A DNA stretch of 56,301 nucleotides from Syntrophus sp. PtaU1.Bin005. GTDB lineage: Bacteria > Desulfobacterota > Syntrophia > Syntrophales > Syntrophaceae. Made by a program: the position numbers and the translations under genes. The notes beneath the pieces were generated by a model that was given only the letters and a program-made list of their open reading frames with translations, did not search any database and was not told where the DNA came from. Each line of letters begins with the position of its first letter. Position 1 is the first letter of the stretch. Shown here one piece after another: positions 8,305 through 55,757 of the stretch. The stretch lies in NCBI GenBank assembly GCA_002067745.1, contig MVRU01000009.1, positions 1 through 56,301 of the forward strand, read 5' to 3'.

Positions 8305-9459
8305 ATGCCGTCGGAACAGCAGAGCCGGAAGATCATTTCCGGGATCTCATCGAAGACCGCTGGCGACGAAGGGGGTCGGACTTCATCAGATCTTCCCGGC
8401 CTTCATCAATCTTTCGTCCGGGGTTTTCTGCACACACCCATCGGTGCTGTTCCCGTCGTGGAAGCCGATCTTTCCCGCCGGGATCTGCTCGGCAGCCTCA
8501 AGGTCCGCTTTGGAATCGGCTGGAGGAACTACTCTCTTGATCCGGGCCTCTACGCCCTGGGCAGACCGGACGAAGCGTCCCCGGTGGTGGTTTCGGCAAA
8601 CGATAAAGCGAGCTTTGACCGTCTGCGGGAGGCCCTTTCCGGCAGGTCCGCCTGGATTCTCGTTCTCGACACGCAAGGGGTAAATGTCTGGTGTGCCGCC
8701 GCGAAAGGGGATTTCGGGACGGAGGAGCTGGTCCTTCGCCTGCAGTCCAGCGGGCTGGGACAGGTGGTGAAGCATCGGCGGCTGATCCTGCCGCAGCTTG
8801 CAGCCTCGGGAGTGGCCGCCCACGAGGTTCGAAGCCGGACCGGCTTTACCGTTTCCTATGGCCCGGTGGAGGCCTACGACCTTCCCGCATACCTGGATGC
8901 CGGGATGAAGGCGACGGAGGCCATGCGGAGAAAGACCTTTCCCCTCCGGGATCGGATCGCCCTTATTCCCATGGAATGGATTTCCAGCCTGAAGCTTTTG
9001 ATTCCGCTCTGTCTTTTTTTCCTGCTTGCCGCCGGGATAGACGCAGAATACGGATGGAAGACGGCTCTTGCCTTCGATTCAGGACTCTTCATGGTCTATG
9101 CCCTGCTGGGGGCATTTTTTTCCGGGACGACGGTCACTCCGGCGCTTTTCCCGTGGCTGCCGGGCCGGACGTTTGCCGCCAAGGGGCTGTGCCCCGCCTG
9201 GATCATCGTCCTGTTTCTGCTCAACGCCCGGCTGACCTCCCCCCTATCTCTGCCGAGGGTTCTGGAGTCTTTTTCCGTCCTCTTTCTTGTGCCCGCCGTT
9301 TCCTCCTTCCTGGCCATGCGATTTACCGGTTCTACGCTCATTACCTCCCTGTCCGGGGTGCGCAGGGAAATGCGCCTGGCTCTTCCCCTGCAGATCGCCG
9401 GAGGGCTGGCGGGTCTGGCGCTCTGGATTGCCGCGAAGACGCTCCGGATTCTTTGGTGA
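8305..9459 (+). CDS. hgcA: HgcA, corrinoid methyltransferase of mercury methylation
   Basis: 384 aa from ATG 8305, which has GGGAG 7 nt upstream; a GTG at 8236 opens the frame but lacks a site. The N-terminal cobalamin-binding domain (about 35-235) has the family's signature: NVWCAAAKGDFGT with the cobalt-ligating Cys130, preceded by WILVLDTQG and followed by HRRLILPQL and VAAHEV. About five membrane helices fill residues 240-384. HgcA passes a methyl group from its corrinoid to Hg(II); with the ferredoxin HgcB it makes methylmercury. The signature is usually NVWCAAGK, and here the Gly is Ala. The following hgcB is only a stump, so function is uncertain although HgcA itself looks full length. 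Confidence 0.93.
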   Translation: MPSEQQSRKIISGISSKTAGDEGGRTSSDLPGLHQSFVRGFLHTPIGAVPVVEADLSRRDLLGSLKVRFGIGWRNYSLDPGLYALGRPDEASPVVVSANDKASFDRLREALSGRSAWILVLDTQGVNVWCAAAKGDFGTEELVLRLQSSGLGQVVKHRRLILPQLAASGVAAHEVRSRTGFTVSYGPVEAYDLPAYLDAGMKATEAMRRKTFPLRDRIALIPMEWISSLKLLIPLCLFFLLAAGIDAEYGWKTALAFDSGLFMVYALLGAFFSGTTVTPALFPWLPGRTFAAKGLCPAWIIVLFLLNARLTSPLSLPRVLESFSVLFLVPAVSSFLAMRFTGSTLITSLSGVRREMRLALPLQIAGGLAGLALWIAAKTLRILW

Positions 9460-9498
9460 GGAATGTCAAGCAGCCGACAGGAGTGTTGAAAAAGCACG

Positions 9499-9630
9499 AT
9501 GGAAACGCTGCTCTGCTTGGAACATGTTGTAACTCTGCAGCTGGACGGGGAAAAGTGCATCGGCTGCGGCATGTGTCTGGAGGCCTGTCCCCGCCGGGTC
9601 CTGCTCTGGGCGACAGATGAGGAGCACCCC
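9499..9630 (+). pseudogene. hgcB: Truncated hgcB ferredoxin, read in frame into the next gene
   Basis: From ATG 9499 about 36 residues match the start of HgcB: a VVTLQLDGEKC approach and one complete 4Fe-4S motif CIGCGMCLEACP. The protein should continue with a second CxxCxxCxxxCP cluster and a C-terminal Cys pair. Instead, after RRVLLW the frame runs without a stop through a short linker into the DUF3147 protein at 9631. The second cluster was not found in any nearby frame. It is either a deletion remnant or a ferredoxin-membrane fusion of about 154 residues (9499-9963). Position right after hgcA, 39 nt away, supports the identity. Confidence 0.75.
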
Positions 9631-9963
9631 ATGCAGATGCTCATCAAAGTGGTCATCAGTGTGTCCGTTATTGTCCTGGCGACTGCCCTTGCCAGGAGGT
9701 TTCCTCTGCTGGCGGGCCTGATCGGCGTCATGCCGTTGACCGGTGCCCTTGTTCTGGTCTGGGTCTATCTTGAGAACGGGGGCGATCCACAGATCATGCA
9801 GAGCTTTGCCAAGGGGGCATTCTGGGGCATCCTGCCGACCCTGCTGTTCTTTTTTGTGGCCTTTCTGTGTTTGAAAAAAGGGTGTTCACTGCCGGAGGTC
9901 CTAGCCGCGGGTTTTGCCGCCTGGACCGCAGCTGCCTTCCTGCACCAGTGGCTGCTGAAATAA
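9631..9963 (+). CDS. DUF3147-family small membrane protein
   Basis: 110 aa from ATG 9631, with TGAGGAG 6 nt upstream and a length that fits this four-helix family (LIKVVIS start, RRFPLLAGL, MPLTGALVLVWVYLE, ILPTLLFFFVAFLCLKKG). Function of the family is unknown. The frame is open upstream into the hgcB stump, so a longer fusion product is possible, but the internal ribosome site and family length favour this start. It lies between hgcA and the YeeE/YedE-type pair. Confidence 0.75.
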   Translation: MQMLIKVVISVSVIVLATALARRFPLLAGLIGVMPLTGALVLVWVYLENGGDPQIMQSFAKGAFWGILPTLLFFFVAFLCLKKGCSLPEVLAAGFAAWTAAAFLHQWLLK

Positions 9964-10044: not shown

Positions 10045-10587
10045 ATGAAGAGAAAAACGAAGGATCGAGGCTGGAGCCCTTACCTCGCCGGGGCCCTTCT
10101 GGGGCTCCTGGCCGTCGTCTCCGTATGGGCGACGACCGCTCTGCTGGGGAAGAGCACCTATCTGGGAGCCTCAACGACATTCGTCCGTGCCGCCGGCCTT
10201 TTGGAGCGGACGGTTGCCGGAGAGCACGTGGCGGCGAACGAGTACTTCAAGAAGGAAAAGGTGCGCGTCGATTGGCAATTCATGCTGGTTTGCGGCATTT
10301 TCCTGGGAGCGCTGGTCTCGTCCCTCTCCGACAGGAGCTTTAAACTGGAAGGTGTTCCCCCCGTGTGGAAAAAGCGCTTCGGGCCGTCCGTCGGGAAAAG
10401 GGCGGCCGGAGCCTTCCTCGGAGGCATTGTCGCCATGGTAGGCGCCCGGATGGCGGACGGCTGCCCCAGCGGCCATGGCCTCAGCGGCATGATGCAGCTG
10501 TCGGGAAGTGCCTTTGTGGCGCTGGCGATGTTTTTCTGCGTGGGTGTCATTGTTGCGGCCATTGTCTATGGAAGGAGGGCGTCATGA
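10045..10587 (+). CDS. YeeE/YedE-family transporter, first half
   Basis: 180 aa membrane protein; ATG 10045 follows AAGGAG with 8 nt spacing. An N-terminal helix, a helix near 75-95 and a C-terminal pair are visible. The conserved Cys-containing loop GARMADGCPSGHGLSG marks the YeeE/YedE family, whose members carry thiosulfate or other sulfur compounds across the membrane. In this subfamily the transporter is split into two genes, and the second half follows with a 4-nt ATGA overlap. Confidence 0.85.
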   Translation: MKRKTKDRGWSPYLAGALLGLLAVVSVWATTALLGKSTYLGASTTFVRAAGLLERTVAGEHVAANEYFKKEKVRVDWQFMLVCGIFLGALVSSLSDRSFKLEGVPPVWKKRFGPSVGKRAAGAFLGGIVAMVGARMADGCPSGHGLSGMMQLSGSAFVALAMFFCVGVIVAAIVYGRRAS

Positions 10588-11114
10588 GCACGGAACAGAT
10601 ACTGGGCCTGATGACGGGTGTGGCCTTCGGGTTTCTTCTGCAGAAAGGTCGCGTGCTGCGATTCGAGAAGCAGCTCGGCGCCCTGATGCTCAGGGACATG
10701 ACCATCTTCAAATTCATGCTTTCGTCGATCCTCGTCGGCATGGTGGGGATTAACCTGCTATCCGACGCAGGAATCATTACCTTGAGCCATAAAGCCATGA
10801 ATGTCGGCGCCGTGGTGGTGGGCGGCGCCCTGTTCGGAGCCGGCTGGGCCATCATGGGCTTCTGCCCTGGCACATCCGTCGGCGCACTGGGGGAAGGACG
10901 CTGGCATGCCCTGTTTGCCGCCTTGGGCATGGTGGCCGGGGCGGCTCTCTATGCAGAGCTCTATCCTTTTTTCAAATCCACCGTTCTGGCGTGGAAAAAC
11001 TTCGGCAAGATCGGCCTGCCGGAAGTGACGGGCCTTTCGCCATGGGTCATCATCGCCCTGTTCTGGGCGGCCACGATTTCCCTGTTCGCCTGGTTCGAAA
11101 AGAAAGGGCTGTGA
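10584..11114 (+). CDS. YeeE/YedE-family transporter, second half
   Basis: 176 aa, start ATG overlaps the previous stop (ATGA), implying translational coupling. Hydrophobic helices surround the matching Cys loop GWAIMGFCPGTSVGALGEG. Together with the preceding gene it supplies the two Cys loops expected of a complete YeeE-type sulfur-compound permease. Substrate cannot be told from sequence; thiosulfate, sulfide or selenium compounds are possible. Confidence 0.85.
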   Translation: MSTEQILGLMTGVAFGFLLQKGRVLRFEKQLGALMLRDMTIFKFMLSSILVGMVGINLLSDAGIITLSHKAMNVGAVVVGGALFGAGWAIMGFCPGTSVGALGEGRWHALFAALGMVAGAALYAELYPFFKSTVLAWKNFGKIGLPEVTGLSPWVIIALFWAATISLFAWFEKKGL

Positions 11115-11695: not shown

Positions 11696-12286
11696 ATGAC
11701 ACATCGGATCGATGAACTGATCGTCAAGATCAAGGAACTTGAAGAGGAAATGGAGATTGAGTTCCAGAGGAAACGGGAAGATCTCCTGACCAGCATCGAC
11801 AGGAAGCGCTTCCGCCTCAGTGAAGAGGTGGCCCTCCAGCAGCGCCGTTTCAAACAGGGCGTGGTCCATTTCCTGATCGAAGCGCGGCTGCTCAACATCC
11901 TGACGGCTCCGTTGATCTACTCCGGCTTTCTCGTTTTCGTGCTGCTGGACCTGCTGATTTTTGTGTACCAGGGCATCTGCTTTCCCGTTTACGGCATTCC
12001 CAAAGCGAAACGATCCGATTATCTCGTCTTTGACCGTGTGGATCTTCCCTATCTCAACGCCATTGAGAAGTTCAACTGCTTCTACTGCTCCTATGCCAAC
12101 GGCCTGGCTGCCTATTTCCGGGAGGTTGCCGCCCGCACGGAGCAGTACTGGTGTCCCATCAAACATGCCCGCCGGATTATGGCCGCTCACGACCGCTATC
12201 CCCGATTTTTCGAGTACGGCGATGGCGAAAGCTACCGCAAGGGGCTGGAGCGGCTGCGCAAGGAATACGAGAAGCAGGGAATTTAA
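11696..12286 (+). CDS. Coiled-coil membrane protein of unknown function
   Basis: 196 aa, strong ribosome site AAGGAGG. Residues 1-55 are charged and heptad-like (IVKIKELEEEMEIEFQRKRE), predicted coiled coil. A long hydrophobic segment spans about 65-100. The C-terminal half is soluble and contains a CxxC (FNCFYCSYANG) and the segment EQYWCPIKHARR, suggesting a metal or redox site. I recognise a conserved hypothetical pattern but not a function. Confidence 0.7.
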   Translation: MTHRIDELIVKIKELEEEMEIEFQRKREDLLTSIDRKRFRLSEEVALQQRRFKQGVVHFLIEARLLNILTAPLIYSGFLVFVLLDLLIFVYQGICFPVYGIPKAKRSDYLVFDRVDLPYLNAIEKFNCFYCSYANGLAAYFREVAARTEQYWCPIKHARRIMAAHDRYPRFFEYGDGESYRKGLERLRKEYEKQGI

Positions 12287-45817: not shown

Positions 45818-46489
45818 CCGGCTTGAGAGCAATTCAATCTTCCGGCGGATTTTCTCTTCTTTTTCCATGTCCGACCGGCTCCGGTAAAACGATTTCAGGC
45901 GGTCAAGATAAATCAGCAGGGGCCTCCTCCAGCCATGAACGGAAGCGAGGTCCACTGCACCGGTCAGCAGGGCTTCGTCCTCCCCTCGATAGCGGACCGC
46001 CAGCCCCGTGGCGATCAGCCGGGAGAGATCATCGCGGATTCTGTGAACCGACCCGGAGATCTCCTCCCTGTCTCCCCTCTCCAGGGCTGCGGCAAGGTCC
46101 TGATAGGAGGGCGGAAGGTGCTCTCTCTGGAGCGAGTCGAAGCTCCCCGCCAATAAGAGATAATAGTTTTTTTGACGATCGGCACCGGCCGGATCGGCTT
46201 TTGCGATTTCGAGATATTCCCGGTGGTCGGACGTTTCAAGGACAGCGATCCGGAGCGCAGACCGGGTCAGGTAAGCCGTCATAAGCAGCGATAAATCGCC
46301 GCTTCTTTTAATTTCCTCAATGGCCTTTTGAAAGTGAAATTCAGCCGTTGTGTCCTTTCCCGACAGAAAATCGCTCTTGTATCGTTCCAGATGGGAAAAG
46401 CTGGCCGTTCTCCATTCCGGGACGGATTTCCCGGCGCATCCGCATAACAGAAGCAGACAGCCACACATGAAAGCCAGGTATCGTTTCAC
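45686..46489 (-). CDS. Lipoprotein at the end of the MCE operon
   Basis: 267 aa. Signal peptide with lipobox LLLCGCAGK, so a membrane-anchored lipoprotein. The mature part is helical with TPR-like character (EFHFQKAIEEIKRSG, YLEIAKADP). Not recognised as MlaA or another known accessory. Its ATG overlaps the MCE gene stop by 4 nt, placing it firmly in the operon. The last 44 residues are antisense to pdxT. Confidence 0.75.
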   Translation of the reverse strand: MKRYLAFMCGCLLLLCGCAGKSVPEWRTASFSHLERYKSDFLSGKDTTAEFHFQKAIEEIKRSGDLSLLMTAYLTRSALRIAVLETSDHREYLEIAKADPAGADRQKNYYLLLAGSFDSLQREHLPPSYQDLAAALERGDREEISGSVHRIRDDLSRLIATGLAVRYRGEDEALLTGAVDLASVHGWRRPLLIYLDRLKSFYRSRSDMEKEEKIRRKIELLSSRSGMWSKPGPACCIPEMPGGVDKAFWSQGTAFQGKIAMKGQAGR

Positions 46490-47439
46490 GGCAGTTTTAT
46501 CCTGGGCTCCTTCCTGAAGGGGATTTTCCTGTCCAACTCCTTGACAAGACTGTTGATCGTGCTGATCGTTTCATCGATGTCCCTGCGCAGCACTCCGAGA
46601 TCCTTTGTCGATGCGTCCACGTTGGCGCCCACGTTGTTTACATGGATAACGAACTGATCCAGTTTGGCCAGCTTGCCCACAAGATCCACCAGGAGCGTTC
46701 GCATGGATGGGAAAATTCCGTCCTTGCCGTAAAGGGCTTCATCCGATTTTACAGCCATGGCATCCACCGTCTTTAAAATGCGGGTCATCTCCGTGGTTAT
46801 TTCCTCTGTATTTTTGAGTGCTTCCTGTACGGCGGACACCGTATCCGGGTTGCCCAAGGCAAGATCAAGAAGGGAATCCGTGCGGGCCAGCCGCTCGGCC
46901 AGTGTTTCCGTGTGACGCAGAATCTGATTCACGTTTCCCTTCGGGTCGACCAGGTTCGCCGTCAGGGTTTCGATATTGATGGTGATCCGGTTCAGCCGCT
47001 CCACGACCGGTTCCAGTTTCTTGATGGTTGTGTTGATGTCATTGGCCACCACAACTTCCTTGATCGCTTCCGTGGACAGGGGGGGACTGCTCATTTTCCC
47101 CGTGGAAAGTACGATGCGCGGATCGCCGATCAGCGGCTTGTTGATGATAAACACGCTGTCCCGCCGAAGCCATTTCGCATGCCGGTGGAGAATTTTGATC
47201 CGGATCAGGATGCGCCCGTCATCGCCGAGTTCCAGGGCATGCACTCTGCCGATCTTGTAGCCTGACAGGAGGACCGGCATACCCTCCGTCAGATCTTCAC
47301 CGGAAAAGGAGGCCAGTGTGTACGTGTCCACCCGGGAAAAAACATCCTTCTTGTAGGCCACATAACCGATGGCGGAAACAATCAGCACCGAGGTGATCAG
47401 GATGAACAGCCCGACCTTGTATTCAAGACTCCGAAACAT
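46486..47439 (-). CDS. mlaD: MCE/MlaD-family periplasmic lipid-binding protein
   Basis: 317 aa. One N-terminal membrane helix (about 10-28), then a single MCE domain (about 38-120: SFSGEDLTEGMPVLLSGYKIGRV) and a long helical tail (about 125-300) with repeated coiled-coil segments. MCE proteins form hexameric rings or tubes that shuttle lipids between inner and outer membranes. Its start overlaps the degenerate ABC gene by 17 nt. Confidence 0.9.
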   Translation of the reverse strand: MFRSLEYKVGLFILITSVLIVSAIGYVAYKKDVFSRVDTYTLASFSGEDLTEGMPVLLSGYKIGRVHALELGDDGRILIRIKILHRHAKWLRRDSVFIINKPLIGDPRIVLSTGKMSSPPLSTEAIKEVVVANDINTTIKKLEPVVERLNRITINIETLTANLVDPKGNVNQILRHTETLAERLARTDSLLDLALGNPDTVSAVQEALKNTEEITTEMTRILKTVDAMAVKSDEALYGKDGIFPSMRTLLVDLVGKLAKLDQFVIHVNNVGANVDASTKDLGVLRRDIDETISTINSLVKELDRKIPFRKEPRIKLP

Positions 47440-47845
47440 CTTTTATCCTATAGCGGTCGCGATTCCATGAATAATCCAAAATCCTGCAGGAGAAATAAAG
47501 GTCATCGATCCGGGTCAGACTGTTCTCGATCAGTTCCGCATCGGGCAGATCAGGCACGAGACGAAAGGGCCGGTCAATGACGATCAGGGCATCCTGGACC
47601 ATCGCCGCCCGCAGCAGTTTGACCAGGTAGCGTTCCCAGTGATCCAGCGCCGCAATTCGCAAACCGGCGATCTCCCGCTTCTGAAAACGGTTCAGAAGAC
47701 CCACGACGACCCTCTTCGCCTGCAGCCTGCTTTCGCTGAGATGGTAAAGCCGTATTAGAGCAATATTCAGCCACACATTCAAGTTGGAAATCAGGGGAAT
47801 GTCCGTTGAAACAAGCCCGAGGTTCTCCGGATGCCTCTCCTTCAA
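47423..47845 (-). CDS. Degenerate ABC-transporter ATPase subunit (MlaF-like remnant)
   Basis: 140 aa from TTG 47845. It holds the gene position of an MlaF ATPase, and its middle follows that family: ISNLNVWLNIAL resembles the Q-loop/helical region, AALDHWERYLVKLLRAA lies where LSGGxxxRVxLARAL should be, and ALIVIDRPF replaces the Walker B LLLLDEPF. Walker A is absent. The frame stays open upstream to about 47905 but offers no normal start codon or Walker A. Either a decayed ATPase or a re-purposed non-ATPase subunit. It overlaps mlaD and follows mlaE by 44 nt. Confidence 0.6.
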   Translation of the reverse strand: MKERHPENLGLVSTDIPLISNLNVWLNIALIRLYHLSESRLQAKRVVVGLLNRFQKREIAGLRIAALDHWERYLVKLLRAAMVQDALIVIDRPFRLVPDLPDAELIENSLTRIDDLYFSCRILDYSWNRDRYRIKDVSES

Positions 47846-47889
47846 ATCCGAAAGGGCCTCGTCAAGGCGATTCTCATCTTCAAATAATA

Positions 47890-48675
47890 TTAAATGGAGC
47901 TTAGGATTAATGACAGGACCTCAATGACGACGATGGCTATAAATACGTTATTCATACCGGTCAAAACGGCTATGGGAATGCTGGACAATTCATTCGATGC
48001 CGTCAAACCGTATCGAATCGGAAGCAGGGTGATAAAAAATCCGAAGGTTGCGCATTTCAGGATCAGGATCACCAGGTCCGAAAAGTCGGCGGATACAACC
48101 AGAATCCGGATGTAGGCATCGAATGCCAGACCGAAAATCATCCGCGAAAACAGGGCCCCGCTCGCCAGAAGCACGAGGGTGAAAATGCCGTTGAGAAGAA
48201 CGACGGAAATGATTCCGCTCAAAATTCTGGGGACAACGATATAATCGAAGGCGTCGATTCTAAAGACATTCAGCGCATCCAATTCCTTGCTGACCTTCAT
48301 GACCGCCACCTCCGTGTTGAGCGCCGCCCCGGAGCGCAACGCCAGCAGGAGCACGGTCATAAAGGGGCACACCTCCGTGAAGATGAAGCCCATCAGAATA
48401 TTACCCAGATTCCCCGCCATCCCCATCTGTTTGATGGAGTCAAGGACGATCCCCATCAGAAACAGGCCCATCAGGGCGGAAATATAGATGAACAGGGGCA
48501 GTATCTGTACGGCCGTAAAATACAGCTGCGTGATGATGACCAGTTGAGTGGCCTTATTGTACGTCTTGAGGTCAAGGAGATGAAGGATGACCTGCCAGGT
48601 AAAAAAAAGCGTTTCGAATGCGGAACGGCAAAGCTTTAACGTCCTTGTGCCTATGCCTTCAATAAAAGTAACCAT
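47890..48675 (-). CDS. mlaE: MlaE-family ABC permease
   Basis: 261 aa with five or six membrane helices. The conserved cytoplasmic segment RSGAALNTEVAVMKVSKELDALN, normally GxxxAAELGTMKVTEQIDAL, marks the MlaE/YrbE family that pairs with MCE proteins. It moves phospholipid or another lipid across the inner-membrane face of the system. The gene starts the transport half of the operon, 132 nt after the phosphopantetheinyl transferase. Confidence 0.93.
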   Translation of the reverse strand: MVTFIEGIGTRTLKLCRSAFETLFFTWQVILHLLDLKTYNKATQLVIITQLYFTAVQILPLFIYISALMGLFLMGIVLDSIKQMGMAGNLGNILMGFIFTEVCPFMTVLLLALRSGAALNTEVAVMKVSKELDALNVFRIDAFDYIVVPRILSGIISVVLLNGIFTLVLLASGALFSRMIFGLAFDAYIRILVVSADFSDLVILILKCATFGFFITLLPIRYGLTASNELSSIPIAVLTGMNNVFIAIVVIEVLSLILSSI

Positions 48676-48807
48676 TGAATTTCCGCAATCCAGGGTGCCG
48701 TGGTGATGATTCCTCGTCTTTACATGCCCTCAGGCAAAACATGCATTTCCGGAAAAACTACCATAGGAAGGCAAGGAGTGCAAATCCCAAAACGAAGGCC
48801 TTTCAAA

Positions 48808-49497
48808 TCAGGGAACGGAAGGTTGCAGGAGGCAGGCATGGGCCAGAAACAACCCGTCATGACTCAGGCTGATGTCAACATCAAGGAGCCGGCCCCGGCA
48901 GAAGACCCGGGGCGGTGCCGCTGAAGATCCCTTCTGCTGCCGGACAATCTCCAGGTCCTCGAAATGCTCGGAAAGCAGTCCCGCAAGATAGAACCTTGCC
49001 GCCAGCCGGCCGGCCTCGGTATCGGGAGCGCGCCCCCCCTGAAGGGATGAAGAAAGGTAGTGAACATGACGGAAAACGCTCAGGGTATCCGGAGCGTGAG
49101 TAAAGGCAAGGCAGTGGAGGTAGGTATGGCGGTATTCAATCCGGATCCAGCACCTCCCAGCGGGCGTCAAGACGGAACCTGCAGACAGACGTGGAAAGAA
49201 AAGGCCCTGGATGTCCGGAGATTCCGTTCCGGAATCTTCATGGCCTTCAGGGTCTATGGAGACCGGAAAGAGCTTCGGGATGGCTGGTATGTCAGGACAG
49301 GCCTTGCTGATGGCTTTGTAAGCCGCTTCCTTGGCCGCCCAGCAGCACCAGAGCCTCAGTTCCGGGAAGGCGGATGAGGACAGGATGAAGTCCTGTTCAT
49401 CAGGCGTGAAGACGCGGTTGAGGAAACGAATATTTCTGCTCTTCTTTTTTGCAGTGGATTGGGTCAGATCCACGATGTCGTTGCCGACATGAGGCAA
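48808..49497 (-). CDS. 4'-phosphopantetheinyl transferase
   Basis: 229 aa. VGNDIVDL with metal ligand Asp7 and WAAKEAAYKA with Glu57 are the two PPTase motifs. A third block, DISLSHDGLFLAHA, lies near the C-terminus. It converts apo-ACP to holo-ACP and probably serves the variant ACP at 50231-50479. Its start lies 98 nt inside the upstream acyltransferase gene, in another frame. Confidence 0.87.
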   Translation of the reverse strand: MPHVGNDIVDLTQSTAKKKSRNIRFLNRVFTPDEQDFILSSSAFPELRLWCCWAAKEAAYKAISKACPDIPAIPKLFPVSIDPEGHEDSGTESPDIQGLFFPRLSAGSVLTPAGRCWIRIEYRHTYLHCLAFTHAPDTLSVFRHVHYLSSSLQGGRAPDTEAGRLAARFYLAGLLSEHFEDLEIVRQQKGSSAAPPRVFCRGRLLDVDISLSHDGLFLAHACLLQPSVP

Positions 49498-50221
49498 AAT
49501 GCTGTTCCTCCATATGGGCGAGTTTCTGTATGCATTGAGCCGCGTAGTGACGGTGCGCCCTGCGGCCGCTCAATTCCGTTGGTGCCGGTTCAATGACATC
49601 GACCAGCACGGAAAACTTTTCTCCCCACCGGGGCAGATTGCTGTATTGATCCTGATGATCTCCCCGGAGGTATAGGCAAAGCACTTTGCACTCCCTGCAG
49701 CAGTCGATCAACTGACCAATCCCGTAGGAAAAATTCTCCGTGTCCACATGGCCGATCCGGGAACGGCCCCCTTCCGGGAAAATCATGACATTCTGCTTGC
49801 TGTTCAATACGGCAAGACATTGGTCGAGTGTGGACTGGACCTCCTGGCGACCGGCTCCGCGGCTGATCGGAATGCACTTTGTAAGATAACAGACAACCGT
49901 GAGAAAGAGATTCCGTTGGAAATTCGCCCGCTCCGGAACGTTCCAGGGGAGCGTCTGATAGCTCAGAAGAAAACGGTACAACGGCGCGATGGCATAGGTC
50001 AGAATGGCGGAATCGATCATCGTCAGATGATTCGCACAAATGATCCACGGCCCTTCATGGATTTTGAAGAGCTCGTGGCATTTATGGCGGATCCTGCGGA
50101 TGTCCCGGATTCGGTAACCCGCAAGGCGTATGGCAAGATATATCAATGGACCGACAATAAAAACGGCGATTCTGCCGAGAGCATATTGCAGTCTGAGAGA
50201 ATTATTTCCCGCTTTCTTCAT
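49400..50221 (-). CDS. PlsC-type 1-acylglycerol-phosphate acyltransferase
   Basis: 273 aa. An N-terminal membrane helix (about 15-33) is followed by the acyltransferase motifs NHLTMID (His65, Asp70), RANFQRN, and FPEGGRSR at 148-155. It would move an acyl group from ACP or CoA to a glycerolipid or other alcohol. The final 32 residues overlap the PPTase gene. Position directly after ACP suggests acyl-ACP from this operon is the donor. Confidence 0.87.
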   Translation of the reverse strand: MKKAGNNSLRLQYALGRIAVFIVGPLIYLAIRLAGYRIRDIRRIRHKCHELFKIHEGPWIICANHLTMIDSAILTYAIAPLYRFLLSYQTLPWNVPERANFQRNLFLTVVCYLTKCIPISRGAGRQEVQSTLDQCLAVLNSKQNVMIFPEGGRSRIGHVDTENFSYGIGQLIDCCRECKVLCLYLRGDHQDQYSNLPRWGEKFSVLVDVIEPAPTELSGRRAHRHYAAQCIQKLAHMEEQHFASCRQRHRGSDPIHCKKEEQKYSFPQPRLHA

Positions 50222-50230
50222 GAAGAACCC

Positions 50231-50479
50231 TTAAGCCAGTTTGCTTTGAACCACTTCGATTGCATTTCCGATGGTCCGGATTTTGTCGGCATCGTCGTCA
50301 TCGATCTCTATTCCAAAGACATCCTCACATTTGATGATGACGTCCACAAGACGCGCGGAATTGACTTTGAGGTCGTTGAGAATGTGGGTATCTTTTGTCG
50401 CCGTTTCCAGAAGGGCGGGGTCCTTGGCGTAAAGCCTCAGGATGTTGATCAACTCTTCAAAAATCTTTTTTTCGTCCAT
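50231..50479 (-). CDS. Variant acyl carrier protein
   Basis: 82 aa from ATG 50479, behind AAAGGAG. The attachment Ser41 lies in LKVNSARLVDVIIKCED instead of the usual DSLD, so Asp-Ser-Leu became Asn-Ser-Ala. The rest is a typical acidic helical ACP. It is the dedicated carrier of the second fatty-acid-like set and differs clearly from acpP at 25352. Confidence 0.88.
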   Translation of the reverse strand: MDEKKIFEELINILRLYAKDPALLETATKDTHILNDLKVNSARLVDVIIKCEDVFGIEIDDDDADKIRTIGNAIEVVQSKLA

Positions 50480-50512
50480 TTTAATGCTCCTTTTCAATGC
50501 TCTTATTTGTTT

Positions 50513-51790
50513 TTATTCTTCCCATTTCTTAAAAATCAGGCAACTGTTCACATCGCCAAATCCGAAGCCGGCTTTGGCGATAATTTTCAAATCCGGGCAC
50601 TCCACCGTCTGATGCGGAATGCTTTTGGAAAAAGCGGTAATCTCCGGATGGACATCCTCGCAGTTGATGGAGGGATGGAGAAACCCCTTGTAGAGCTCCA
50701 GCACAACGGCAACGCACTCAATGGCCCCGGCTGCACCAAGGCAATGACCGACCATGGACTTTGTTGACTGGATGTAGGGGAAATTTTCCGGACCGCGTTC
50801 TAACGCTCCGGTCCAGTTCTTCACCTCGTAGGGGTCAGCGAAGGTGGCCGTCAGGTGGCCGTTGATGGCCTCGATGTCCTGAGCCGAAATCCCCGCGTCG
50901 GCGATGGCTGCAAGGATGCACCTCTTGACCCCTGTCGGATTGGGGGCGGTCATAGAGCCCCCCATTCGGTGTCCGCCGCAATTGACGTGCCCTCCGAGCA
51001 GCTCCGCGTAAATGCGGGCGCCGCGGGCCTGAGCCGTTTCCAGGTCCTCGAGAAGAAGAAGGGCCCCCCCGGATCCTGGAATAAATCCGCCGGCTGATGC
51101 GCTCATCGGCCGCGATGCCTCTTCGGGGCGGTCATTCGATTTTTTGGAGAGCACCCGCATGGCATCGAAGCCCGCCCAGATATGGGGTGAGGCGCCTTCC
51201 GTGCCGCCGGCCAGCATGCGCTTGGCCAATCCGGCCCGAATCCGCGTCATGGCATCAAAAATGGCTTCATTGCCGGTGCTGCACGCCGAGGAGTTGGAGG
51301 TCACCTGGTTTCCCAGGGCCAGCAGTCCGCCGACACGCGCACTGGTCCCGCTGTTCATGACCTGTTCGACAATGCTGCTGCCCATCCGCTTCACTTTTCC
51401 CGCATTGACCATGGGAACCACGATATTGGCGATGGTGTCCATCCCCCCGATGCCGGAACCGACGATAATGCCCGAATCCCAGTCCACCTCATCGGAATCG
51501 AATGAAGGGACGGTCAGCCCGGCATCCCTCCAGGCATCAACCGCTGAGATTGCTGCGTAGCTGATATTCTCATTCATCGAAATCAGCTGTTCCGGGACGA
51601 AATATCGCTCCCGTATCGCCTCGACACCCTGCGGGATTCCACCGACCTGACAGGCAAAATTGAGCTCCTTCAACTCCGGAATATAGCGAATCCCGGACCG
51701 TCCTTCACGAAGGGCCGCTTCATATTCCTCCAGACCATGACCGTTGGGTGCAAGGACACCCATTCCTGTAATAACGACTCTACGTTTCAT
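50513..51790 (-). CDS. KAS II-like 3-oxoacyl-ACP synthase
   Basis: 425 aa. FabF fold with intact triad: Cys170 (SSACSTGNEAI), His312 and His349 (KSMVGHCLGAAGA). Around the first His the sequence is NGHLTATFADP rather than NAHGTSTPLND, indicating a distinct subfamily, perhaps with altered chain or partner specificity. It condenses acyl groups with malonyl-ACP. Its start overlaps the FabZ-like gene by 11 nt. Confidence 0.92.
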   Translation of the reverse strand: MKRRVVITGMGVLAPNGHGLEEYEAALREGRSGIRYIPELKELNFACQVGGIPQGVEAIRERYFVPEQLISMNENISYAAISAVDAWRDAGLTVPSFDSDEVDWDSGIIVGSGIGGMDTIANIVVPMVNAGKVKRMGSSIVEQVMNSGTSARVGGLLALGNQVTSNSSACSTGNEAIFDAMTRIRAGLAKRMLAGGTEGASPHIWAGFDAMRVLSKKSNDRPEEASRPMSASAGGFIPGSGGALLLLEDLETAQARGARIYAELLGGHVNCGGHRMGGSMTAPNPTGVKRCILAAIADAGISAQDIEAINGHLTATFADPYEVKNWTGALERGPENFPYIQSTKSMVGHCLGAAGAIECVAVVLELYKGFLHPSINCEDVHPEITAFSKSIPHQTVECPDLKIIAKAGFGFGDVNSCLIFKKWEE

Positions 51791-52259
51791 GCAACATAAC
51801 CCCCGCCCCGGCTAGTACACCAAAACAGATATTTTCACCGTTTTCCCGTTCCATACTGATCTTTGTTTTAAGGCTTCCTCTCCGGAAATATATTTTTTCA
51901 CCACGGATGACCACCCGTTCGCCGGGCGATACAATATTATTGAATTCGACACTTTCTACAAACGTAAAAAGGGTTGTCAATTGTCTGGTCTCTTCAAGAG
52001 AATTGTGCTTCTGCTGCATTGTCAGATAAAGCCCGAAAGCCACGACGCCGGTCTGGGCCATCGTTTCAATCAGAATCACTCCCGGGGTAATCGGACGGTC
52101 AGGAAAGTGTCCCGTATAGAAATACTCGTCCTCGCGATAACGGTATGCGCCGACGATGTGATTCTCGTCGAGCTCGATGATCTCATCGATGAACCGGAAG
52201 GGGTATTGCTGGGGAACCGCCTTCAGCACGAGATCCATGGTTTTTCGATCAGCCCCCAT
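51780..52259 (-). CDS. FabZ-like hotdog dehydratase
   Basis: 159 aa from ATG 52259, chosen for GGAGG 5 nt upstream; ATG 52277 is weaker. Catalytic His51 (YTGHFPDRPITPGV) and Glu65 (LIETMAQTG) are 14 residues apart, as in FabZ. It dehydrates 3-hydroxyacyl-ACP. It overlaps fabG-like by 11 nt. Confidence 0.9.
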   Translation of the reverse strand: MGADRKTMDLVLKAVPQQYPFRFIDEIIELDENHIVGAYRYREDEYFYTGHFPDRPITPGVILIETMAQTGVVAFGLYLTMQQKHNSLEETRQLTTLFTFVESVEFNNIVSPGERVVIRGEKIYFRRGSLKTKISMERENGENICFGVLAGAGVMLHET

Positions 52260-52983
52260 AAAGGCCTCCGTTGACATGAATCACCGTCCCTGAAATATAG
52301 GAGGCCCGGCAGGCGAGGAAGGAAACCACATCGGCGATCTCCTCCGGAGAGCCGAGACGCCCCAGGGGGATGCTGTCCAGGATGCGCTTTTTGACTTCCT
52401 CGGGCAGATTCTGGGTCATCGGGGTGTCAATGAATCCCGGCGCAATGGAATTCACCAGGATGTTTCTTCCCGTCAGTTCCTTGCAGAGCGACTTCGTAAA
52501 GGCGTCCAGGGCGGCTTTTTCCATCGTGTAGGGAATTTGCCCGCTGTTCCCGGTATGGCCGACGACGCTGGAGATGTTGATGATGCGACCGCTGTTTTTC
52601 CGGAGCATGAAAAGCCGCAGAATCCGTTTGGTCAGATACCAGCTTCCCCGGACGATGGCCCGCTGCAGATCGAAATCCTCCAGCGTCATACTGTTGATGT
52701 CCTTGTTGATGGAAATGCCTGCGGCATTGAGAAGCACATCGACACGGCCGGCCTGCTCCTTGATTTCGGCAAGCATGGACTCGACCTGGCCGGCATCCGT
52801 GAGGTCGGCCTTGAGAAGAAATCCGTCTTCAATCTCCGCAAGAACGGCCTTGGCCTGCTCTTCAACGATATCGATATAATTGATTCCCACCCGGAAACCT
52901 TCCCGGGAAAGAACCCTGGAACAGGCGGCGCCGATGCCCGTACCGCCCCCCGTCACTATCGCCACTGGTTTATTCGAACTCAT
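52249..52983 (-). CDS. FabG-like 3-oxoacyl-ACP reductase (SDR)
   Basis: 244 aa. Cofactor motif TGGGTGIG at 11-18, NAAG at 86-89, catalytic Ser139 (INISSVVG), Tyr152 and Lys156 (YTMEKAALDAF), SIAPGFIDTPMT near 185. The Asn that completes the usual SDR tetrad is not evident (AIVRGSW where VNLxG is expected). NADPH reduction of 3-oxoacyl-ACP is the likely role. Confidence 0.92.
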   Translation of the reverse strand: MSSNKPVAIVTGGGTGIGAACSRVLSREGFRVGINYIDIVEEQAKAVLAEIEDGFLLKADLTDAGQVESMLAEIKEQAGRVDVLLNAAGISINKDINSMTLEDFDLQRAIVRGSWYLTKRILRLFMLRKNSGRIINISSVVGHTGNSGQIPYTMEKAALDAFTKSLCKELTGRNILVNSIAPGFIDTPMTQNLPEEVKKRILDSIPLGRLGSPEEIADVVSFLACRASYISGTVIHVNGGLYGG

Positions 52984-52985
52984 GA

Positions 52986-53576
52986 TTAGCTCCTGATGAT
53001 TCCTCCCGTCGAATTGCGGGAGTGCTTGGGATAATCCGGGTAAACGATGCCGCTGAAAACACCGGACTGGGCCTTGTTGATCTCCGTGATCAATTCGTTG
53101 TCGACAAAGACTTTCGCATCGCCGATAACCACGCTGGAACCGGAATCTTTCAACTGGGAAAAGCGGCGGATATCCACTTCGTAGCGGACGCAGCGGTTAT
53201 ACGGACGAATCTGGCCGTTGAAGGAAACGTTTTGGCAGCCGAGCGCCCTACCCGCCCCGAGGGCCCCGCGCCAGACACAGTAAAACCCGAGCAACTGCCA
53301 GACGGCATCGACACAAAGACAACCCGGCTGGATAGGATCCCCGGAGAAATGACACTGAAAATACCACGCGTCAAGGCGAATATCCTGTTCCGCCACAATG
53401 CGGCCTTGACGACCGTCGTGGGTGATCGTCAGAATCCGATCCATCATGAGAAAGGGGGGCGCAGGAAGGCGGGCGTCAAAGCCTTCGGGGCGATTTTCCA
53501 CGAGATTACCGTAAGCAAAGGCCAGCAGATCTTCAAGGCTGAAGCTGCCGCGTTCGCGAAACTCCTCATAGGTCAT
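52986..53576 (-). CDS. FabA-type 3-hydroxyacyl-ACP dehydratase/isomerase
   Basis: 196 aa. Close in pattern to E. coli FabA: FQCHFSGDPIQPGCLCVDAV with His76 and Asp90 (14 apart, as His70/Asp84), WQLLGFY, and QNVSFNGQIRPYNR. Begins with SLEDLLAFAYG. FabA both dehydrates and isomerises to the cis-3 enoyl product, allowing anaerobic unsaturated chains. It overlaps the KAS III gene by 4 nt. Confidence 0.88.
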   Translation of the reverse strand: MTYEEFRERGSFSLEDLLAFAYGNLVENRPEGFDARLPAPPFLMMDRILTITHDGRQGRIVAEQDIRLDAWYFQCHFSGDPIQPGCLCVDAVWQLLGFYCVWRGALGAGRALGCQNVSFNGQIRPYNRCVRYEVDIRRFSQLKDSGSSVVIGDAKVFVDNELITEINKAQSGVFSGIVYPDYPKHSRNSTGGIIRS

Positions 53577-54553
53577 AATTGATCCTCAATTTTCAATAGG
53601 GTATGCACCCATGTCAGACCGCCCCCCACAACGCAGACCGCCACGTGGTCGCCGGGGGAAAAGTCGTTCCAGTGCTGGCTCAGAACAGCAGGAGCGCCGG
53701 AGCAGCCTGTGTTGCCAAAATATTCAACATTGTGCCAGTGCTGCTCCTCCAAAATGCCAGTGCGCTCGCAGGCGGTGCGGAGCATCCCGAGATTGGCCTG
53801 ATGGCCGACAAAGCGGTTGACCGGGTAAACGGACTGCAACGCCCGGATGGAGTCCGTCGTCTTGCGGATGGCGAACCCCTGAACCGCATGCCCATCCTGG
53901 CGAAAATAACCCATCCGGGGAATAACTACCTTTTCCCAGGCTGTGGGCTTCGAATCACAGAAACTGGAGAGAAAGACGGCCCCGGAGGACTCCCGCGTTG
54001 AAACCACCGCCGCTGCGGCTCCATCGCCGAAGAGAACGGCGACGGCGCGATCCGAGTAATCCACGCTCCGGGTCATGGTTTCCGGATTGACGATCAGTAC
54101 GAAAGGGGGAAGAGTCTCCGGTTTCATCATGTCCAGGACGTGAATATCCATCCCGAAGCTGCTGCAGGCCGAATTCACGTCGAAGCAGGGGACGTCGATG
54201 TTCAGTTCCGCGGCGACGGTCGATGCCTCCGCCGGTGTCAGATGATCCGAAGCGGAACTTCCCGAAATCACCATCCCGATATCGCCGGGAGAAAGCCCGG
54301 CGCGTTCGAGGGCCATCTGCGCCGCGAAGGCGGCGATCTGTGCGTTATTGTAGTCAGAGGCCTCTATCGCCGCCCGTGGATCCACATTTTTTGTGGAGCG
54401 GATATAATCGAGGGACATGACCGTCCGGCGGGCCGCAATGCCGACCCGCTCCATGATCCATTCTTCGTTCGTACCGATGTCCAGTTCTTCCAGAAAAGCA
54501 TTGCTGATGACATTTTCAGGATGAAAATGACCTAAGCCGTGAAGATATAGCAT
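53573..54553 (-). CDS. KAS III / FabH-like synthase
   Basis: 326 aa. Triad Cys130 (VNSACSSFG), His251 (FVGHQAN) and Asn281 (YFGNTGCSG) intact. It likely primes chain synthesis from an acyl-CoA. Compared with FabH there is an insertion near 45-60 (SLDYIRSTKNVDPR). Starter unit unknown; in a benzoate or cyclohexane-carboxylate degrader an unusual starter would be conceivable. Confidence 0.9.
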   Translation of the reverse strand: MLYLHGLGHFHPENVISNAFLEELDIGTNEEWIMERVGIAARRTVMSLDYIRSTKNVDPRAAIEASDYNNAQIAAFAAQMALERAGLSPGDIGMVISGSSASDHLTPAEASTVAAELNIDVPCFDVNSACSSFGMDIHVLDMMKPETLPPFVLIVNPETMTRSVDYSDRAVAVLFGDGAAAAVVSTRESSGAVFLSSFCDSKPTAWEKVVIPRMGYFRQDGHAVQGFAIRKTTDSIRALQSVYPVNRFVGHQANLGMLRTACERTGILEEQHWHNVEYFGNTGCSGAPAVLSQHWNDFSPGDHVAVCVVGGGLTWVHTLLKIEDQL

Positions 54554-54560
54554 AATTATC

Positions 54561-55757
54561 TCATACCAGTTCCCGCCCGATGATCATATCCTGAACCTCG
54601 CGGGTGCCCTCATAAATATCAATGATGTGCACATCACGAACGAGTTTGGAAATCTCATACTCATTGGTGAACCCGTAGCCGCCGTGCAGGTGCAGCCCCT
54701 CGTTGCAGCAGAAAAGAGCGGTTTCCGCGGCCATGTTTTTCGCGAGGGACGAATAAATCCCTTTATCGGGCGCGTCTTCCATGATTTTGATGGCGGATTT
54801 TAACAGAGCCAATTCGGAAAGTTCAACCTTTTTCCACATCGAGACAAGGGTCTGCCTGGCGACCGGGATGTCACAGAGCCTCTGGCCGAAGAGTTTGCGC
54901 TCCTTCGCATACGACAGGGTCAGATCAAAGGCCCTTTTTGCCACTCCGACTCCGATGGCTGCAATCATGGGACGGGCGAAATCCAGGACGTCGATCACGT
55001 ACTTGAAGCCCAACCGGCGATCTCCGATAATTTGGCCGGGTTCGAGCAGAACATCCTCGAAGGTCACGCCGGCTGTGTTGGACAGGCGCTGCCCAAGTTT
55101 GTCTTCCGGTTTGCCGACTATGATCTTTCCGCCTGTGGGCAGCTGAATTTCCCGAACCCCGTCAATGGGGGACGCCGCGTCGAGGGGAAGGGGAGGAACG
55201 GGGATGATCGCACAGGCCATCAATTGGCTGGAAGGTTTTCCCACCTTGCAGAAAACGGTGAATTGAGAGGCATAGGTGGCATTGGTGATGAAACACTTCG
55301 ACCCGTTGAGGACATACCTGCCGTCTTCCCGCTTTGAAATATAGGAGGTCATGGAAAGGTTGTCCGAACCTGCGGCCGGTTCCGTCAGGCAGAAGGCCGA
55401 GAGCAGCGGGGCATCGACAAAGGGCTTCAGATAGGCCTGCTGCTGAGCTTCCGATCCGTGCTGGGCAATAACGACGTTCGCCAGGTCATTGCACATGGCG
55501 GACGTTGCAAGGCCGGAATCGCCATAGGAAAGTTCCCGGATGATCAAGGCGGCTGATACCACATCGACATGGTACCCCTTGATGGATTCCGGGACGGAGA
55601 TATTCATGATGCCCATATCCCAGACCTGTTTAAGCAAATCCACTGGGAACACGTGCTTCCGGTCCATCTCAAGGGCGTGGGGAAGAATCTCGTTCTTGAC
55701 AAATCGCGAGACCGTGTTCACGTACATCTGCTGAGTTTCGTTCAGGCTTAGATCCAT
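54561..55757 (-). CDS. Acyl-CoA dehydrogenase-family flavoprotein
   Basis: 398 aa. FAD contacts in FCLTEPAAGSDNLSMTS and CFITNATYA, and the catalytic-base region DIYEGTREVQDMIIGREL with Glu383. Full length for the family. Inside a fatty-acid-synthesis-like operon it may reduce enoyl-ACP, or desaturate an acyl-ACP, since no enoyl reductase of the FabI, FabK or FabV type is present. It is 7 nt from the KAS III gene. Confidence 0.92.
   Translation of the reverse strand: MDLSLNETQQMYVNTVSRFVKNEILPHALEMDRKHVFPVDLLKQVWDMGIMNISVPESIKGYHVDVVSAALIIRELSYGDSGLATSAMCNDLANVVIAQHGSEAQQQAYLKPFVDAPLLSAFCLTEPAAGSDNLSMTSYISKREDGRYVLNGSKCFITNATYASQFTVFCKVGKPSSQLMACAIIPVPPLPLDAASPIDGVREIQLPTGGKIIVGKPEDKLGQRLSNTAGVTFEDVLLEPGQIIGDRRLGFKYVIDVLDFARPMIAAIGVGVAKRAFDLTLSYAKERKLFGQRLCDIPVARQTLVSMWKKVELSELALLKSAIKIMEDAPDKGIYSSLAKNMAAETALFCCNEGLHLHGGYGFTNEYEISKLVRDVHIIDIYEGTREVQDMIIGRELV

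Follow-up and report, generated by a model that had tools for sequence, protein, structure and literature searches.

hgcA is widely used as a marker of mercury methylation, and a fused form of hgcAB has been reported in Pyrococcus furiosus. Natural HgcAB-like fusions are captured by the profile NF043039, and the canonical pair by NF040863 (HgcA) and NF040864 (HgcB). In a coevolution-based model of HgcB, cluster A is held by Cys20, Cys23, Cys26 and Cys60 and cluster B by Cys50, Cys53, Cys56 and Cys30, while Gly96 of HgcA contacts Arg58 of HgcB (PMC7305189). Among the mutants summarised there, HgcB Cys73Ala abolished methylation activity and a Cys94/95 double mutant had 95% less activity (PMC7305189). 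When HgcA is made in E. coli without HgcB, it is insoluble and cobalamin-free (PMC11588087).

The window, by which we mean the whole analysed stretch of 56,301 nucleotides, corresponds to contig C9 in the draft genome (2.9 Mb, 165 contigs) of Syntrophus sp. PtaU1.Bin005 (G000). It carries a second hgcA of this genome (hgcA2) followed by an open reading frame in which the beginning of HgcB runs into a membrane protein; a preliminary description of the window had placed this arrangement at 8305-9963, and its coordinates and content hold (NF040863, 388 bits; matches to NF040864 and NF006752). We consider it likely that this second hgcAB is redundant and at an early stage of decay, with an intact pair being kept on another contig, C105. 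The locus has in common with the natural HgcAB-like fusions that HgcA and ferredoxin sequence are arranged unusually; in those proteins, however, HgcA is fused to HgcB, whereas here HgcA is separate and the HgcB remnant is joined to an unrelated membrane protein. HgcA2 itself scores 193 bits with the fusion profile, below its cut-off of 285. The features of the locus are collected in Table 1.

Table 1. Features of the hgcA2 locus and its 3' neighbours (positions in the window).
Feature	Position	Strand	Evidence
hgcA2, full-length HgcA (corrinoid and membrane domains), second copy of the genome	8305..9459	+	NF040863, tree
Cap-helix motif NVWCAAAK (NVWCAAGK elsewhere); codon 8701-8703 GCG = Ala	8683..8706	+	
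hgcB stub, first 35 HgcB codons (METLL...CPRRVL), one CxxCxxCxxxCP motif	9499..9603	+	NF040864, homology to G001 and G002
Deletion junction, 27 nt against 308 nt in G001 (remaining hgcB and intergenic DNA)	9604..9630	+	Comparison with G001 L029 3826-4133, reversed
PRK09272/DUF3147-type membrane protein, complete, own ATG and ribosome site	9631..9963	+	NF006752
YeeE/YedE-family sulphur transport protein, first half-gene	10045..10587	+	PF04143 9e-23; same order in G001
YeeE/YedE-family sulphur transport protein, second half-gene	10584..11114	+	PF04143 5.4e-19; same order in G001

In common with a canonical pair, HgcA2 passes the NF040863 cut-off (388.6 bits against 275, covering positions 1-323 of 325), has both corrinoid and membrane domains, retains the catalytic Cys93 (NVWCA at 8683-8697) and is encoded immediately 5' of an HgcB start, in the operon order of the genus mate G001. 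Translation from the ATG at 8305 gives MPSEQQSRK, the counterpart in a second genus mate, G002, begins MPSEQQTR, and the frame stops at 9459. In the tree, HgcA2 is sister to the HgcA of G002 (98/90) and that of G001 joins next (100/100). The window departs from a canonical pair, however, in that its HgcB ends after 35 residues and in that Ala replaces the invariant Gly96 of HgcA (ND132 numbering), a change that the preliminary description did not mention. We surveyed this column in 74 Syntrophales HgcA, 79 motif-bearing loci from named genomes and 8 further loci, some contigs being common to more than one set, and Gly96 was present in all of the other Syntrophales loci (73/73), all named-genome loci (79/79) and all 8 of the remainder, leaving HgcA2 as the only one of approximately 150 HgcA with Ala. 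R35W and Y63D are further changes at otherwise invariant columns; in total HgcA2 departs at five of the columns that do not vary in 71 other HgcA, where its two closest relatives depart at 2 and 1, and its NF040863 score is the lowest among the full-length HgcA of the order.

The fusion ORF (9499-9963) has 154 codons and starts 39 bp past the hgcA2 stop codon. Its residues 7-39 match HgcB positions 3-35 of 93 only, at 35.4 bits (cut-off 99), and with 77% identity to the HgcB N-terminus of G001 and 83% to that of G002, the stub is by homology genuine HgcB. The second CxxCxxCxxxCP motif is missing and the first is the sole remainder; relative to G001 and G002, Cys73 and the C-terminal cysteines are deleted, and Arg58, the modelled contact of Gly96, also falls within the deleted part. 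The preliminary description spoke of a decapitated hgcB, and the gene is indeed broken, by deletion, but it is the C-terminal two thirds that were lost in comparison with G001, the N-terminus being kept. The description was also right that a first cluster motif remains, although this motif is not self-sufficient, given that cluster A needs Cys60 and that Cys30 belongs to cluster B (PMC7305189). Because the four cysteines retained (the equivalents of Cys20, 23, 26 and 30) are split between clusters A and B, neither [4Fe-4S] cluster could form normally in the stub, and the residual protein in addition lacks Cys73 and the terminal cysteines, which according to the published mutants are needed for methylation. 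HgcA2, with its full ORF and Cys93 and yet without Gly96, the modelled contact of the missing part of HgcB, is on its own most likely inactive in mercury methylation.

In G001, which is a single 3.18-Mb contig, the order is the ancestral one, hgcA, hgcB, DUF3147, yeeE, yeeE, and hgcB is complete, with two cluster motifs, the Cys73 region and the C-terminal cysteines, while the membrane-protein gene has its own ATG. The window shares this gene order, with 71-90% protein identity along the locus, but in G001 hgcB is separate from the membrane-protein gene and there is no second hgcA. This locus type is common to two of the three genus mates (G001 and G002), and both possess a complete hgcB, so that the comparison with relatives proposed in the preliminary description supports a deletion in the window. 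The net loss relative to G001 is approximately 281 bp from hgcB codon 36 onward, covering the second cluster motif, Cys73 and the C-terminal cysteines; the deletion took away the remainder of hgcB together with intergenic DNA, so that the 35 codons left at the start now read in frame into the gene that follows. The relatives have TCCTG at both edges, in G002 within hgcB (GGGTCCTG) and in G001 5' of the membrane gene (CATCCTGG), which is compatible with a short-homology deletion, the edges being read from these relatives and not from the exact ancestor. The 27 nt of the junction retain GAGGAG at 9619-9624, six bases ahead of the ATG at 9631, which agrees with the own start and ribosome site that had been noted for the membrane protein.

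As the draft comprises 165 contigs and is a single assembly, a true full-length hgcB might have been collapsed or misjoined at this point. We regard such an error as distinctly unlikely, considering that an informal look noticed no misjoin-prone repeat at the joint, that the junction is in frame and leaves the following gene with a good ribosome site, that hgcA2 carries the independent unusual change G96A, and that G002 has an independent rearrangement of the adjacent interval.

Downstream of the junction, fusion ORF residues 45-154 match all of NF006752/PRK09272 (positions 1-110 of 110; 166 bits, cut-off 162). The frame does therefore pass into a complete membrane protein, as the preliminary description stated, but the Pfam name it used, DUF3147 (PF11345), is reached only below threshold, through the orthologue in G001 (16.6 bits against a cut-off of 23.6); the copy in the window gives no match. 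The protein shares 77% identity with its separately encoded G001 counterpart, and many genomes across the phylum carry the family as a stand-alone gene. In 16 of 17 family members M1 aligns with the ATG at 9631, the remaining one having Ile. Positive charges are conserved at 22-23 and 82-83, in two loops expected to be inside, and by the positive-inside rule the N-terminus is probably outside the cell. The preliminary description had suggested a new ferredoxin-membrane electron donor, which would make the fusion a working one-cluster ferredoxin, anchored in the membrane and supplying electrons to HgcA2. Although no stop interrupts the frame at the joint and four cysteines survive, these serve two different HgcB clusters (PMC7305189), leaving the stub without the full ligands of either, and a stub at an outer N-terminus would not reach the cytoplasmic corrinoid domain of HgcA. 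Moreover, no ferredoxin was found 5' of any other membrane-family gene examined, no comparable fusion occurs among the hgcB neighbours surveyed, and the ribosome site of the stub is poor (GGAG at 9480-9483, 15 nt ahead of the ATG at 9499). We find this role very improbable. The most economical view is that translation of the membrane protein would still begin at 9631, its own start, the stub being a passenger if made at all.

A genome-wide search found one hgcB above the cut-off (124.8 bits against 99), on C105, where it adjoins an HgcA of 453 bits with the motif NVWCAAGK. The pair, whose sequence was examined in full, is canonical, with a two-cluster HgcB that includes Cys73 and the terminal Cys pair. 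The preliminary description had proposed that the strain may have lost the trait, and had named an intact hgcB elsewhere in the genome as evidence to the contrary; this is what C105 holds. The trait is therefore probably not lost, and any mercury methylation by the organism would rest on the C105 pair. The genes are arranged as MarR-hgcA-hgcB-DUF2703 (L003 2909-5915), together with a putative ArsR-like gene, judged by sequence, near the contig end. The third genus mate, G003, has the same arrangement plus an inserted permease, and the cluster suggests metal- or arsenic-linked regulation.

C105 very probably belongs to the G000 genome, an assignment made by composition and phylogeny rather than linkage. 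Its GC content is 0.554 (window 0.555) and its tetranucleotide correlation with the window is 0.91, where pieces of the window give 0.88-0.96 and loci from other families 0.75-0.85; in the tree its HgcA groups with that of G003 as sister (99/98), and their clade is distinct from that of the window type. Contamination is disfavoured by this window-like composition and by the position of the HgcA next to that of a genus mate, and the contamination score of 2.7% is background, since the single-contig G001 itself scores 3%. The nearest relatives of the C105 flavoprotein are found beyond the genus (78%, G024), so that some doubt on the origin of the contig persists. Two full-length hgcA per genome are rare, being found above the cut-off only in G000, G430 and G496 in a phylum-wide sample of 395 genomes. 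A literature search for reported two-hgcA genomes yielded none bearing on the G000 case. In both G430 and G496 (L209-L212) hgcB is intact beside each hgcA copy, and redundancy thus need not bring decay.

hgcA2 contains no frameshift and no stop and shows no pervasive relaxation, its pairwise dN/dS being 0.19 with G002 and 0.22 with G001, compared with 0.18 between G001 and G002. A neutral pseudogene along the whole branch is ruled out by the value of 0.19 and the absence of stops, and the substitution pattern indicates that HgcA2 was under selection during most of its history. On the hgcA2 branch amino-acid changes are raised (39 vs. 23, p=0.056), silent changes are also up (45 vs. 30), and a neighbouring gene trends similarly. 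The open frame and low dN/dS imply either that the deletion and decay are recent or that HgcA2 is still under selection. It is therefore conceivable that HgcA2 is still in use, partnered by the HgcB encoded on C105 in the same genome, and that its local hgcB is dispensable; the retention of Cys93 together with the purifying selection would fit this, and hgcA and hgcB lie far apart in Desulfovibrio inopinatus (PMC5038027). However, HgcA2 and the C105 HgcA belong to different clades and are only about 47-50% identical, G96A is located at the modelled HgcB contact, and the selection signal is mostly older than the deletion and cannot show present use, which leaves us viewing continued use as unlikely. 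A further reading, that HgcA2 was freed from its own HgcB and adapted, through G96A and the other conserved-site changes, to work with a different partner or to catalyse something other than the methylation of mercury, with participation of the membrane fusion, we hold to be very unlikely. We favour decay of a redundant copy on three grounds: the destruction of the partner, the change at an otherwise invariant interface residue, and the presence of a substitute pair.

Overall, the event is ordinary and the gene family interesting: an in-frame deletion has disrupted a redundant copy of hgcAB. An hgcA that scores above the curated threshold and encodes the catalytic Cys can adjoin a destroyed hgcB, and since such copies exist, counts or amplicons based on hgcA only can include probably non-functional ones. 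G000 also offers a natural two-copy genome for examining the roles of Gly96 and of a local HgcB.

Other irregular hgcAB loci were observed in the course of the analysis. In G002, hgcB (L030 8084-8443, C28) is complete but stopless, its frame continuing into the final codons of the homologue of window 11696-12286, an independent and different deletion having taken out the DUF3147-yeeE-yeeE interval. Two of the three species with this hgcAB type show a deletion here, each a different one, and the interval 3' of hgcA is thus deletion-prone. The reverse of the window case is seen in G130 (C56, L105), where an intact two-cluster hgcB stands beside a broken hgcA (match 146-324, internal TGA), and L160 encodes an HgcB-like protein in which a long insertion separates the two cluster motifs. 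Elsewhere in the window, at 46486-55757, ketosynthase, reductase, dehydratase, acyltransferase and acyl-CoA dehydrogenase-like genes were recognized by eye from their translations, and this region looks like a polyene or fatty-acid-type biosynthesis locus.
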